From contig NBMI01000028.1 of the NCBI GenBank assembly GCA_002085445.1, forward strand, positions 1 through 64,000: a stretch of DNA of 64,000 nt, written 5' to 3'. Positions within the stretch are counted from its first letter, which is position 1; the number at the start of each line of letters is the position of its first letter. The notes beneath the pieces are model-generated. The model did not search any database, was not told the DNA's origin, and saw only the letters and a program-made list of their open reading frames with translations. Made by a program: the position numbers and the translations under genes. The stretch is from Candidatus Parabeggiatoa sp. nov. 2. Lineage in GTDB: Bacteria > Pseudomonadota > Gammaproteobacteria > Beggiatoales > Beggiatoaceae. Below, in pieces: positions 49-6,025 of this stretch.

Positions 49-2442
49 TTAAATTTTTTGTAAATAAGGTAGCCATTTACTCTGGGTTATGACAATGATA
101 GTCACTATAATCACAAGTGGATAGCCAACCTGACCCGTTAAGACAATGCGCTTGATCAATAGCTGATCATTGCTGATACTTTCCTGAAGTTGATTGTTCT
201 CTTTATCCAGCGCTTTAGCCTCTTCACCCTCTCCAGCACTTTCAGTTTTCTTGGCAGCCTTTATCTTTTCCAGCGAACCTTGGGCTTCACTTATATCTTT
301 TTCTTTTTTGTGAATGTACAGGGTGGCGATTATGCCCAATACCGCTAACATATAGACCATATAGAAAACGTACTCAATCAGGACATTATAGTCAATCGCA
401 ACTAACACTGAAGCCAGTTGTAAATGGAAAAGCGAGGTTGCCAATATCATATTGATATTGAGACTCATTCTGAGGCCATAGTCAGTGGTAAAATAGACCA
501 CATACCCCAACACGATAATAAATATGGTTGCCAGCAAATTTTTAATAATAAAATTCAACGCCTGCCGAGCAATGTCAATATTCACATTGAACCGAGAATA
601 TTCTATCCGTTGTTGTGAGTCAAACAGTTCCGGAATACCCAGTGTCGAATCGACTTTCTGGCTATTTTGAAAAAACGAGATTTCGTTCATTTTCCATCCA
701 CCGATAGAAAAAAACTTGTTACCCTCTGCGCGTACTAAGTCAACCGGGTCCTTCATACCGAGCACATCGACCACATAAATCAACTGATCTTGGGTCAATT
801 TCTTGTGCTGAAATTGGAGGGGCAAAACCTGTTTATCCAATGGATAATCGTGAAAATCAAAATCACCTTTGAACAGGGTTTTAATTCGGTAAGTTTTAGT
901 GATCACGCCTCCATCAGTAGACGATTTCCTCTCATCAAAAAAATGCTCTTCCGGGTCTAAATCTTTGTCTGGGTCAAAAATATTGACAAAATTGATCAGA
1001 TCAAAGCCTTTTGTCTCTGTTGTCTCGTCGTCTTTGAAACGGAACCACAGATAAAAATCGGCCGTATAGGTCGAATCAGCGGTGTCGAGTTCACTGATGT
1101 CGTTGAAATCGATACCCACATAAACAACATGTGCCTTGTGCATAAACTTGCCATTGACTTGAATAATTTTATTATCCAAGACGTCTTGCAACAGGTTGTC
1201 TGTATTACGCAAGCTAGTCACAGGCTGGTATTGCTCCATTGTGACAATGGGTTTCCCCTTCTTATAAACCGCAATAGGTATCGACTTAATGGCATCACCA
1301 TTTCTATCGAAATACAGATCACCCGTTACCCCTTCTACTGCATTGACTGCACTTGATAACTGCCACAAGTTATCTTTCACCCGTTCACGCGTTTCCTTGA
1401 GGCTCGCAGTCTTACCCGCTTCTAGGGTTTTCCGCACGGCCTCAAGGGCCACCTTCGTGGCATCATAATACATGGCCGACGTGACGATGGATTCCTCTGG
1501 GTAGTTGTTTTTGAGGAATTCATATTTAAAATCCTGGGCACGTTTACCGGCAATATCAATCAGAAACGGTGACGCGATATAAATACCGTCGGTATAGTAA
1601 CCGGGGAAGTGTTTCTCTTGTGGATACTTCTTCTTGAATGCTTGCATAAAATGACTGCTTGCCAGCGCGTCTGCTCCCATCATTGGAATCTTGCGCTCTA
1701 AGCGCCGCAGTCCAGTGATGGTTTTTATTGCTTCGCTTGAGTGCGTTGCCAAAAACAAAATACCGTACTCTTCCTCGTCTTTCAAAGTGTCAAGCATCTT
1801 GGCGAAGTTATTGTCAAAGCTGGTACTCTCATCACTATTGAAACCCCACTGATGCTCAATGGAGAGGCCGATCCTTTTCGCCGTTTGTGCAAATGTCGAG
1901 GCAAGTGTTTTACCATAAGCATCCTCGTCGAATAGAATATAGGCCTTTTTATGACCAAGGATTTTACGCGCATAATTGGCGAGTACCGCACTTTGGTCAC
2001 TATTGTTGAAAATGACGCGGAAATACCAATCGCTATTCTCGGTGACCTCGTTGGCTGTCGCGCTGCCCGTGATCGCCGCCAGGCCCTGTTGTTGGTAAAT
2101 CGGGCCCGCAGCCAGGGATGCACCACTGGTATAATGACCAATAACCGCGACGGCTTTGCTATCGACAATTTTCTTTGCCTGTTCTTCGGCCTTGGCTTTG
2201 TTGTTTTCATCGTCAAATTTAAGCAATTTTACTTTTTTACCCGCAATACCGCCCTGCCGGTTGACTTGGTCAAGATACAGTTCAATGCCTTGTCGCATCG
2301 CCTCACCGTTGCTTTCCTTCAATGGCCCCGCCACCGCGAGATAAATCAGCGCGTCGTCGTCAAGATGTTTCCGGGCAGTAAAAGTCAAGAATATAACGAC
2401 AGACAGGGCTACTAAAAAGAATAGCCAAAATTTTGCTTTCAT
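49..2442 (-). CDS. Periplasmic binding domain fused to a pentameric ligand-gated ion channel
   Basis: The 797-residue product starts with a membrane anchor or signal (about residues 5-23). It continues with a type I periplasmic binding fold of the branched-chain amino-acid receptor kind (about 33-400, with AVAGPLKESNGEAMRQGIEL and an AVIGHYTSG segment). From about residue 434 the sequence is a pentameric ligand-gated channel of the Pro-loop (Cys-loop) superfamily. The beta-sandwich carries the hallmark FDFHDYPLDKQVLPLQF without flanking cysteines, followed by four membrane helices (M1 about 628-652, M2 658-681, M3 690-711, M4 771-790). The M3-M4 loop is about 60 charged residues, whereas the well-studied bacterial channels GLIC and ELIC have only a short linker. 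A ligand bound by the outer domain probably gates an ion current; ligand and ion selectivity are unknown. The start is preceded by AAGG 10 nt upstream. Family assignment is strong, function is inferred. Confidence 0.86.
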   Translation of the reverse strand: MKAKFWLFFLVALSVVIFLTFTARKHLDDDALIYLAVAGPLKESNGEAMRQGIELYLDQVNRQGGIAGKKVKLLKFDDENNKAKAEEQAKKIVDSKAVAVIGHYTSGASLAAGPIYQQQGLAAITGSATANEVTENSDWYFRVIFNNSDQSAVLANYARKILGHKKAYILFDEDAYGKTLASTFAQTAKRIGLSIEHQWGFNSDESTSFDNNFAKMLDTLKDEEEYGILFLATHSSEAIKTITGLRRLERKIPMMGADALASSHFMQAFKKKYPQEKHFPGYYTDGIYIASPFLIDIAGKRAQDFKYEFLKNNYPEESIVTSAMYYDATKVALEAVRKTLEAGKTASLKETRERVKDNLWQLSSAVNAVEGVTGDLYFDRNGDAIKSIPIAVYKKGKPIVTMEQYQPVTSLRNTDNLLQDVLDNKIIQVNGKFMHKAHVVYVGIDFNDISELDTADSTYTADFYLWFRFKDDETTETKGFDLINFVNIFDPDKDLDPEEHFFDERKSSTDGGVITKTYRIKTLFKGDFDFHDYPLDKQVLPLQFQHKKLTQDQLIYVVDVLGMKDPVDLVRAEGNKFFSIGGWKMNEISFFQNSQKVDSTLGIPELFDSQQRIEYSRFNVNIDIARQALNFIIKNLLATIFIIVLGYVVYFTTDYGLRMSLNINMILATSLFHLQLASVLVAIDYNVLIEYVFYMVYMLAVLGIIATLYIHKKEKDISEAQGSLEKIKAAKKTESAGEGEEAKALDKENNQLQESISNDQLLIKRIVLTGQVGYPLVIIVTIIVITQSKWLPYLQKI

Positions 2443-2657: not shown

Positions 2658-4788
2658 CTAATTTTCTAATGACCAGTTGCGGATGTGTTGACCACCAAAG
2701 GCCTTGTTGTACCAACCTTTAACCCGTGGCTTCACCAAAAACCGGGCATTTCTAAAATAGAGCGGGATAATTGCCACCTCTTCTTCTATCAAGATTTGTT
2801 CAGCACGGCGGGATAGTTCTTCGCTTTTAACTTGAGCCGCTGCAAATATTGCCTTATCCACCGTCTTGTCAAATAGCTCACTGTTTTTTCCACTGAGCCA
2901 GTTCAGGCCGGCACTAGAATGAAAAAGCCCTAGCCAGTTAATGGCATCGGAATATTTGACACACCCCGAATAGCGGAAAATATGCGGTGAATTTTGACTC
3001 ATCGGTTGGAGTGGTTTAATGGTAGCGTTGTAACGCGTCCAATTAAGCTCACGTACCTCAATCTCGATGTTCAAATAATGTTTAAGTAAGGTTTTGATCC
3101 CGTTAGCTATTTTTCTGTGAGCTTCGCTCGTGTTGTGCAACAAAACGAGTTTAGGAAAACCCTGACCATCAGGATAGCCGGCCTCTTTTAACCATTCTTT
3201 GGCTTGTTCTGGATTGAATTGAATACCCACTTTTTCGTTGGGATTAATAGCACCAAAACTCTTAGGATGAATTAAGCTCATCGCTGGAATCTGACTACCC
3301 TTAATTACAATCTCGATCAAAAGCTGTTTATCAATCGCAGCAGCAATCGCTTTGCGAACCAACACGTTATCTGTTGGAGATTTTTGAGTGTTGAATTCAT
3401 ACCACTCCGTACAAGCCTGCTCACCCGTGTGCATTTGCTTGTATAACTTAGGATCTGTCTGAATCCGGGGAATTTCCGTCTGTGGCAACCGCAGATAGAC
3501 AGCGCCACCTATGATATCCAAGGCTTCATTCTCATACATGGTTAAACCAATTGAATTTTCTGGCACAATGTGGTATTCCACTTTCCGAATGTTGACTTTA
3601 TCGGCTTCGTAATAATCAGGATTCTTGGTCAAAACAATTCTATTACCTTTATCCCATTCAGCCAGCCTATAGGATCCGTTGGTTTGAATGTTCTGTGGTA
3701 AAGTCCATTCGTCCCCGTATTGTTCAATGATATGACGTGGCAGAGGGCGATAGGCCTCAGTGCTGACCAAGGCAGGAAAAGAGGCTTTCGCGTGTTCCAG
3801 TGTAAATTGAACCGTGTAGTCGTCAATGGCACGAACCCCTAATGAGATAATCTTCTCACTTTGGCCCTGATTATCCGCCATTGCTACGCGTATATTCCCA
3901 CTTTTAAGGAATTGCGTTTTTGCCTCGTTAGTGGTCACCCATATCATCTTCGGTATCGCTCCGGCATTTTTGAGGATTATTGAAAATGTACCGAATTTGT
4001 TCAACCATCTTATGGGCGAGTCCCGGTTCACCCTGAGCCAATTTGACATCTTGAGGGAGTTTCAAGATATAAACCGTACCGTCTTCACTCTTTTGCCAAT
4101 TGTCAGTCGTCAGTGTCGGCACCACTTGTTGAGTGTTTGTGTTCTTTTCATCACTGACCCTTAATTTTTTAAAGACTTCTTGTTTTACAAATTCACGGAA
4201 TTTCTGCGCCATGGTATCATCTAACGCTTGTTCTAGCGTGAATTCCACCGTGTTCTGGTCAATTGCACGGACACCTAACGATACCAATACACTTTCCTCT
4301 ATTTTTTCTAGTGCTTCATTTATCGCTTGAATATTTTTAATAATATCAAACGGAGGAAAGGCATTTTCTAGGAGAAAATTGCGCCGAATGGCCCAAACAA
4401 TATCATGAGCCGTCACCTGTTTACCATCCGTACCATCCGTCCATTTGACATTACGACGAAGATTGAAGGTATAAACCGTGCCGTCTTCGCTGACTTGCCA
4501 ATCAGTCGCCAGTTCCCCCACAACTTTTCCAGAATATTTCTCAAAATCCGTTAATCCTAGAAACAGTTGTTCAACAAACTCACTTTGGTTATCCTCAGAA
4601 GCCAAGCCCGGATCAATGGTACCAACAACACCATTCAAAGGTATCCTCAGAACACCAGACGGTACCGCCGGCTTTTTTGATTGATTCTGGAGCATAAGGG
4701 ACTCGTTAGGGTTTTGCTGTTCGCAGCCGCTGAGAAGCGGCACGAAACACCCGGCTAAGATCGTTATCAATTTGATAAAACTAGACAT
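2658..4788 (-). pseudogene. Peptide ABC-transporter substrate-binding lipoprotein, duplicated and frameshifted
   Basis: This is a family 5 (OppA/DppA-like) solute-binding protein split over two frames. The 5' part (4788 to about 3970) begins MSSFIKLITILAGCF with a lipobox LLSGC, so the product would be a lipoprotein. The 3' part continues in another frame from about 3970 to 2658, with family motifs such as TNGSYRLAEWDKGNRIVL and VRKAIAAAIDK. The switch fits a one-base change near an A5 run (about 3965-3975), where one frame reads NNPQK and the other continues LKNAGAI, as in OppA proteins. The region is also unusual in holding two copies of one module, each with SEDGTVY followed by SLGVRAID and (E/Q)FTLE, at about 4500-4230 and 4095-3770. 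The start at 4788 has AAGG upstream and gives a clean signal peptide. It may be a pseudogene or a sequencing error in an intact gene. Confidence 0.82.
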
Positions 4789-5290
4789 TTTTACAAACCT
4801 TTTTTTGCATGTTGCATTTGAAGATATTGATTGGTAATTGGTAATTGTGAAAGGGCGCATTCCCGTTTTCACGGTTAAGTAAGTACAACGAATTACGCGG
4901 ATAAACGAATTAAATTATAAGTAAGTAACTGTTGGATTGATATTTCGGGAATGAGGAACGATTTCCCTAAACCATTTAGAAACCAATGAGTTATTTATTT
5001 ACAGATCCTAAGTACAACGAATTACGCGGATAAACGAATTACGCGGATAAACGAATTAAAATTAGGGATTGATAATCCTATCAAAAAGCGAACTTTTCAA
5101 AGCCTTTATCGAACCATTCATGTCTAATAATCAAGGCTCGTTTTAATTATTCGTTTATCGGCCCGCTTGTGTCGTTGTACTCAAGTACTCAACAGAAAAA
5201 TTGACTTTTATCAATCCTTATCAATATTATTAACAAAGTACCCGGAAAATGGGAATGCGCCCTTGTGAAACGTCGTCCGTCGCCCTATAG
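4789..5290. repeat. Spacer with copies of a GAATTACGCGGATAAAC repeat
   Basis: No gene is visible. The motif GAATTACGCGGATAAAC occurs near 4890 and twice in tandem near 5020-5050. A related inverted form lies near 5145-5175. Two GGTAATT heptamers lie at 4837-4850, next to the lipoprotein gene start. Confidence 0.6.
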
Positions 5291-5294
5291 GTAA

Positions 5295-5662
5295 GGCGAG
5301 CTATCGCCGACGACGAACCGGCCCACTAAAGGCGAGCTATCGCCGACGACGAACTGGCCCACTAAAGCCGAGCTATCGCCGACGACGAACCGGCCCACTA
5401 AAGGCGAGCTATCGCCGACGACGAACTGGCCCACTAAAGCCGAGCAATCGCCGACGACGAACCTGCCCACTAAAGGCAATCTATCGCCGACGACGAACCG
5501 GCCCACTAAAGGCGAGCTATCGCCGACGACGAACCAGCCTACTAAAGGCGAGCTATCGCCGACGACGAACCAGCCCACTAAAGGCGAGCTATCGCCGACG
5601 ACGAACTGGCCCACTAAAGCCGAGCTATCGCCGACGACGAACCGGCCCACCAAAGGCGAGCA
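5295..5662. repeat. 36-bp hairpin tandem array, about ten units
   Basis: About ten near-identical 36-bp units follow each other with no spacer. Each holds CGCCGACGACGAAC, GGCCCACTAAA and an imperfect palindrome GGCGAGCTATCGCC. Units differ at a few fixed positions (CCGG / CTGG / CCAG; GGCGAG / GCCGAG / GGCAAT). Because 36 is a multiple of three, the array reads through as a 12-residue repeat on the minus strand, but it has no gene-like start, signal or codon pattern. The same family recurs at 13031-13203 and 13297-13374. Confidence 0.9.
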
Positions 5663-5951: not shown

Positions 5952-6025
5952 ACTGATAACTGATAACTGATAACTGATAACTGCAAAATTACCAATTACC
6001 AATTACCAATTACCAATTACCAATT
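5952..6025. repeat. Two adjoining heptamer tracts: TAACTGA and AATTACC
   Basis: About four and a half TAACTGA units are followed directly by about five AATTACC units, both with a strict 7-bp period. TAACTGA direct repeats are a reported feature of marine Beggiatoaceae spacers. The tract lies just downstream of the CHAT gene stop codon. Confidence 0.92.

Follow-up and report, generated by a model that had tools for sequence, protein, structure and literature searches.

In this report, we found that a giant sulfur bacterium, Candidatus Parabeggiatoa sp. nov. 2, carries a predicted channel protein in which an amino-acid-type binding protein and a nicotinic-receptor-type binding domain precede a pentameric-type pore, and that sister proteins place the same two sensor domains on a mechanosensitive-type (MscS) pore instead. 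The first of these designs was described in 2004 (Tasneem et al.; PMC549065). We could not find the second described, although our literature searches for a fusion of MscS with a Cys-loop-type extracellular domain (ECD), or for a PBP-II placed after M4, covered only open-licence papers, and absence from them is weak evidence. The organism belongs to a genus of filamentous sulfur bacteria in Thiotrichaceae; its genome assembly comprises 8.45 Mb in 406 contigs, and the stretch analyzed here (hereafter, the window) is 64,000 nucleotides of one of them.

The window gene, at 49-2442, lies on the minus strand, begins with ATG and encodes 797 amino acids without an internal stop. The initial annotation had described it as an amino-acid-type binding domain fused to a complete Pro-loop channel with a long cytoplasmic loop, and this observation is confirmed. 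A hydropathy scan places an N-terminal hydrophobic segment, either a signal anchor or a signal peptide, at residues 5-23 (2374-2430, minus strand). It is followed by a PBP-I domain of the LivJ/LIVBP type at residues 30-400 (1243-2355, minus strand), where Peripla_BP_6 matches residues 37-394 with an E-value of 7e-37; the two-lobed fold is also supported by fold matches to the model of a relative (locus L112; L numbers denote retrieved loci). The Pro-loop ECD spans residues 401-632 (547-1242, minus strand) and contains the Pro-loop FHDYPLDKQ at residues 530-538 (829-855, minus strand) and the pre-M1 Arg626. The transmembrane domain, M1-M4, occupies residues 633-797 (52-546, minus strand) and was delineated with an alignment of 34 relatives. 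The Pfam models Neur_chan_LBD (9e-4) and Neur_chan_memb (6e-4) match only below their curated cut-offs, but NCBIfam TIGR00860 (LIC) matches residues 409-750 at 3e-16, residues 512-711 match solved chains of GLIC and ELIC-GLIC-type chimeras (about 1e-6 to 1e-5), residues 621-743 match the nAChR beta chain (6e-7), and a 22-sequence profile of the ECD finds GLIC at 1e-5. Together, these matches settle the channel assignment. The possibility, raised beforehand, that two separate genes had been joined by an assembly error is excluded by 26 full PBP-I+ECD+pLGIC loci with the same order across the family.

The interpretation that accompanied the initial annotation is supported in part. The fold assignments and the fusion are right, but the analogy to ionotropic glutamate receptors had already been drawn for the same fusion by Tasneem et al. 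(PMC549065), and thus the fusion itself is not new. The M3-M4 loop, which had been put at about 60 charged residues and considered unusual for a bacterial channel, is real but subclade-specific: it comprises 54 residues (712-765; 148-309, minus strand), 23 of them charged, in the window protein, 56 and 43 residues in two others, and 11-27 in all other relatives. Amino-acid binding is supported only by conservation of the LIVBP contact positions, and gating by a ligand remains an inference. The family context, namely a conserved upstream partner gene, relatives with a C-terminal PBP-II and relatives with an MscS pore, was not visible from the sequence alone.

This family is the larger result. 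The genome holds 12 genes with the PBP-I+ECD module (C numbers denote its contigs). A pLGIC pore is found in the window gene, on C104, on C41 and in one gene on C248; a pLGIC pore with a second binding protein (SBP_bac_1) after M4 on C84 and in two genes on C248; an MscS pore in one gene on C300 and on C38, the latter cut by the contig end; an MscS pore plus a cyclic-nucleotide-binding domain (CNBD) on C300 and C179; and a broken MscS copy on C325. The first set of loci, from the genomes of the family, gave 26 PBP-I+ECD+pLGIC, 8 with the SBP tail, 15 MscS and 23 MscS+CNBD genes. After all retrievals, 151 non-identical ECDs included 99 on MscS pores and 43 on pLGIC pores. In the MscS types, the pore helix and upper vestibule are matched by MS_channel_2nd (2e-16 to 8e-19), with further matches to MscK and MscS models, and a cyclic-nucleotide phosphate-cassette motif is present in 37 of 42 CNBDs. 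One gene of Ca. Parabeggiatoa HSG14 (L138:5780-9154, plus strand, the same as L166:3020-6394, minus strand) joins the module to a P-loop NTPase that appears STAND/NACHT-like (AAA_22 at 7e-4, below cut-off); it was seen in only one genome. A pLGIC-type relative (L071:1831-4704, plus strand) carries a DUF697 domain in front of the PBP-I, and the same family contains separate dCache-pLGIC relatives of about 650 amino acids (L103:3485-5503, L104 and L105), with the Cache domain confirmed by Pfam for L103 only.

Is the domain on the MscS pore truly a pLGIC-type domain? The window ECD matches an MscS-type ECD at 5e-28 by phmmer and, by profile-profile alignment with hhalign, at 9e-70 with 31% identity over the domain. 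An AlphaFold2 model of the isolated MscS-type ECD of L112, built from 42 sequences, has a pLDDT of 87.8, and all 50 listed Foldseek matches to it are AChBP, nAChR ECD (alpha2) or GLIC, with a probability of 1.00. However, TM-scores to AChBP are moderate (0.43-0.59 in the listed hits), and the MscS-type ECD profile alone finds no PDB chain by sequence; the assignment rests on homology through the window type and on the predicted fold. The full-length MscS-type model (pLDDT 75.8) shows an N-terminal helix, PBP-I, sandwich, five transmembrane helices and the MscS beta and alpha/beta domains, but a Foldseek search with it listed only PBP-I and mGluR matches and was uninformative about the ECD. Artefacts of assembly or gene prediction could be suspected in the MscS fusions, since most of the genomes are MAGs and a few copies are broken (L015, L128 and L169). 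This explanation is refuted by the 99 non-identical MscS-type ECDs and by a tandem pair of such genes in a single-contig genome of 4.81 Mb (L084).

The coupling residues changed with the pore. In the family, Pro-loop P534 and D536 and pre-M1 R626 are present in 34 of 34 pLGIC types and 0 of 38 MscS types, whereas core positions (W466, F467, R468, N487, F524, H546, D559, G602 and S616) are kept in both. In the wider set, P is found in 43 of 43 versus 11 of 99, and D in 43 of 43 versus 7 of 99. This is the expected pattern if the ECD had to be coupled to a different pore. Lacking these residues and the four-helix pore, the MscS types are not classified here as pLGICs. A tree of PBP+ECD needs one change of pore at minimum, but the branch joining the two pLGIC clades is below 80 support; a single swap is thus consistent with the tree but not proven, and its direction is not shown. 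The loss of the coupling residues might also suggest that the MscS types are tension-gated MscS/bCNG channels whose PBP-I+ECD part is decorative or structural and unrelated to gating, as MscS subfamilies are known to carry extra N- or C-terminal domains, including ligand-binding ones (PMC4560390). We consider this unlikely, given that the ECD core (W466, F467, R468, N487, H546, D559, W583, G602 and S616) stays conserved and that the module is kept across several classes and phyla.

Gene order and topology also follow the type of output. An SBP_bac_5 (PBP-II) lipoprotein gene lies upstream on the same strand, often overlapping the start, in 21 of 26 pLGIC-type loci, but near 0 of 8 SBP-tail and 0 of 38 MscS-type genes of the family; the PBP-II is encoded next door or fused, though some relatives lack the SBP gene. 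In the window, this gene (2658-4872, minus strand) is split into two overlapping ORFs (2658-4049 and 3928-4872; SBP_bac_5 at 1e-54 and 2e-28, the second with two stretches). The N-terminal Pfam part is matched twice, indicating an internal duplication plus frameshift that is either real or an assembly error; an intact gene of 541-612 amino acids is found upstream in 20 other pLGIC-type loci of the family. Between the SBP gene and the channel gene, at 2468-2588, are four perfect 30-bp tandem copies (TGTTTGTAGTAGGTGATTTATCACCTTAAT). Further repeats, at 5293-5661 and 5952-6025, comprise a 36-bp array (10 copies) and heptad arrays, the ACTGATA repeats being equal to the TAACTGA repeats reported from marine Beggiatoaceae (PMC4679880), in agreement with the placement of the organism. 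MscS and MscS+CNBD genes form tandem pairs in 15 distinct loci, always in that order and 28-1352 bp apart, most under 400 bp. In eight loci (L014, L077, L111, L112, L115, L118, L120 and L171), genes that by eye look like sucC and sucD (succinyl-CoA ligase) lie near the pair. SBP tails follow an even number of transmembrane helices after the ECD (periplasm), and CNBDs an odd number (cytoplasm), so that each cargo sits where it can work.

With regard to the ligand, S79, T102 and E226 of LIVBP, which are alpha-amino-acid contacts, correspond to S106, T129 and D258 of the window protein, whereas Y202 is replaced by H234. S106 is invariant throughout, T129 and D258 are kept in 24 and 25 of 26 pLGIC types, respectively, and D258 is replaced by S/T in most MscS types. 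An alpha-amino acid is thus the best guess for the window type, and the MscS types probably bind something else. Tasneem et al. proposed that such domains help the preliminary concentration of ligand (PMC549065), and it is possible that the window protein is an ordinary prokaryotic pLGIC whose PBP-I is a passive tether that only concentrates ligand or attaches to another envelope protein, with the ECD itself binding the agonist as in ELIC. Some relatives do lack PBP-I (L106, ECD+MscS; L225, ECD+MscS+CNBD). However, the conservation of pocket residues by output type suggests ligand specificity matched to the output rather than a passive spacer, and we regard the tether as doubtful.

A match to the ECD profile occurs in 31 of 43 genomes of the family, 15 of 369 sampled in the class and 43 of 399 in the phylum, the last figure including hits to ECDs of other pLGICs. 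MscS forms occur in several Pseudomonadota classes, Desulfobacterota and Leptospiraceae; named carriers include Ca. Parabeggiatoa, Ca. Halobeggiatoa, Thiomargarita, Thioploca, Desulfococcaceae HSG8, Desulfobacterales HSG16, Leptospiraceae and Ca. Lambdaproteobacteria.

We propose, with reasonable though not full confidence, that the window gene encodes a subunit of an inner-membrane pentameric ligand-gated channel with an extra sensor. In this view, the PBP-I domain would bind a small molecule, most likely an alpha-amino acid, and its closure would move the Pro-loop ECD below it, opening the M2 pore through the usual Pro-loop and pre-M1 coupling; the separate SBP_bac_5 lipoprotein would probably supply or sense a second, peptide-like ligand. 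The gene would be one branch of a modular receptor family in which the same sensor is joined to a pLGIC pore, a pLGIC pore with a PBP-II fused after M4, an MscS pore, an MscS pore with a cytoplasmic CNBD and, once, a P-loop NTPase; in the MscS forms, a nicotinic-receptor-type domain would gate or bias an MscS pore. The architecture, the homology, the predicted ECD fold, the exchange of coupling residues, the operon and pair order and the distribution are established by our analysis, whereas the ligands and their binding, gating, subunit number, ion selectivity and heteromer formation are inferred. M2 has no acidic residue at -2'/-1', and its 13' position is mostly Q or basic (numbered by eye from GLIC), so cation conduction must not be assumed. 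Further, the E. coli MscS ring is a heptamer and pLGIC ECDs are pentameric, which leaves the geometry of the MscS forms unexplained. A bolder possibility, about as likely as not, is that evolution moved a nicotinic-receptor-type ligand-binding domain from its pentameric pore to the MscS pore, probably once, with its coupling residues rewired. This would have created a widespread class of channels sensing a periplasmic metabolite, through PBP-I and the ECD, together with a cytoplasmic cyclic nucleotide, and acting as heteromers of the tandem-encoded subunits.

The coupling of the Cys-loop receptor binding domain to its pore is a long-standing question, and these proteins constitute a natural experiment: the same sensor on two unrelated pores, with the coupling residues kept on one and lost on the other. 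They also provide natural examples of one chain holding both binding-protein types of glutamate receptors around a pLGIC pore, and suggest that giant sulfur bacteria use many ligand-gated channels.

The closest known systems are the PBP-I-fused prokaryotic pLGICs of M. magnetotacticum and B. japonicum described by Tasneem et al. (PMC549065), who also noted neighboring stand-alone PBP-II genes and advanced a chemotaxis-receptor hypothesis. These proteins share the order of PBP-I, Pro-loop ECD and 4-TM pore; the present family differs in its expansion within one genome, the long M3-M4 loop of one subclade, the C-terminal PBP-II of another and its MscS-pore sisters. DeCLIC, the only pLGIC whose N-terminal domain has been partially characterized (PMC9897478, PMC12664993), likewise has a periplasmic domain above a pLGIC, but that domain consists of two small calcium-binding lobes rather than a PBP-I. 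GLIC and ELIC share ECD and TMD homology and the Pro-loop, but have no accessory domain and a short M3-M4 linker. The bacterial cyclic-nucleotide-gated (bCNG) channels of the MscS superfamily (Caldwell et al. 2010, cited in PMC4560390) share the MscS pore with a C-terminal CNBD, but in the proteins detailed here a PBP-I and an AChBP-like domain precede the pore. Finally, ionotropic glutamate receptors also carry PBP-I and PBP-II domains on a channel, and the SBP-tail relatives hold both kinds in one chain; however, the pore is unrelated, being of the pLGIC type rather than K+-channel-like, and the PBP-II, where present, follows M4 instead of being interrupted by the pore. The resemblance is therefore one of plan, not of membership.
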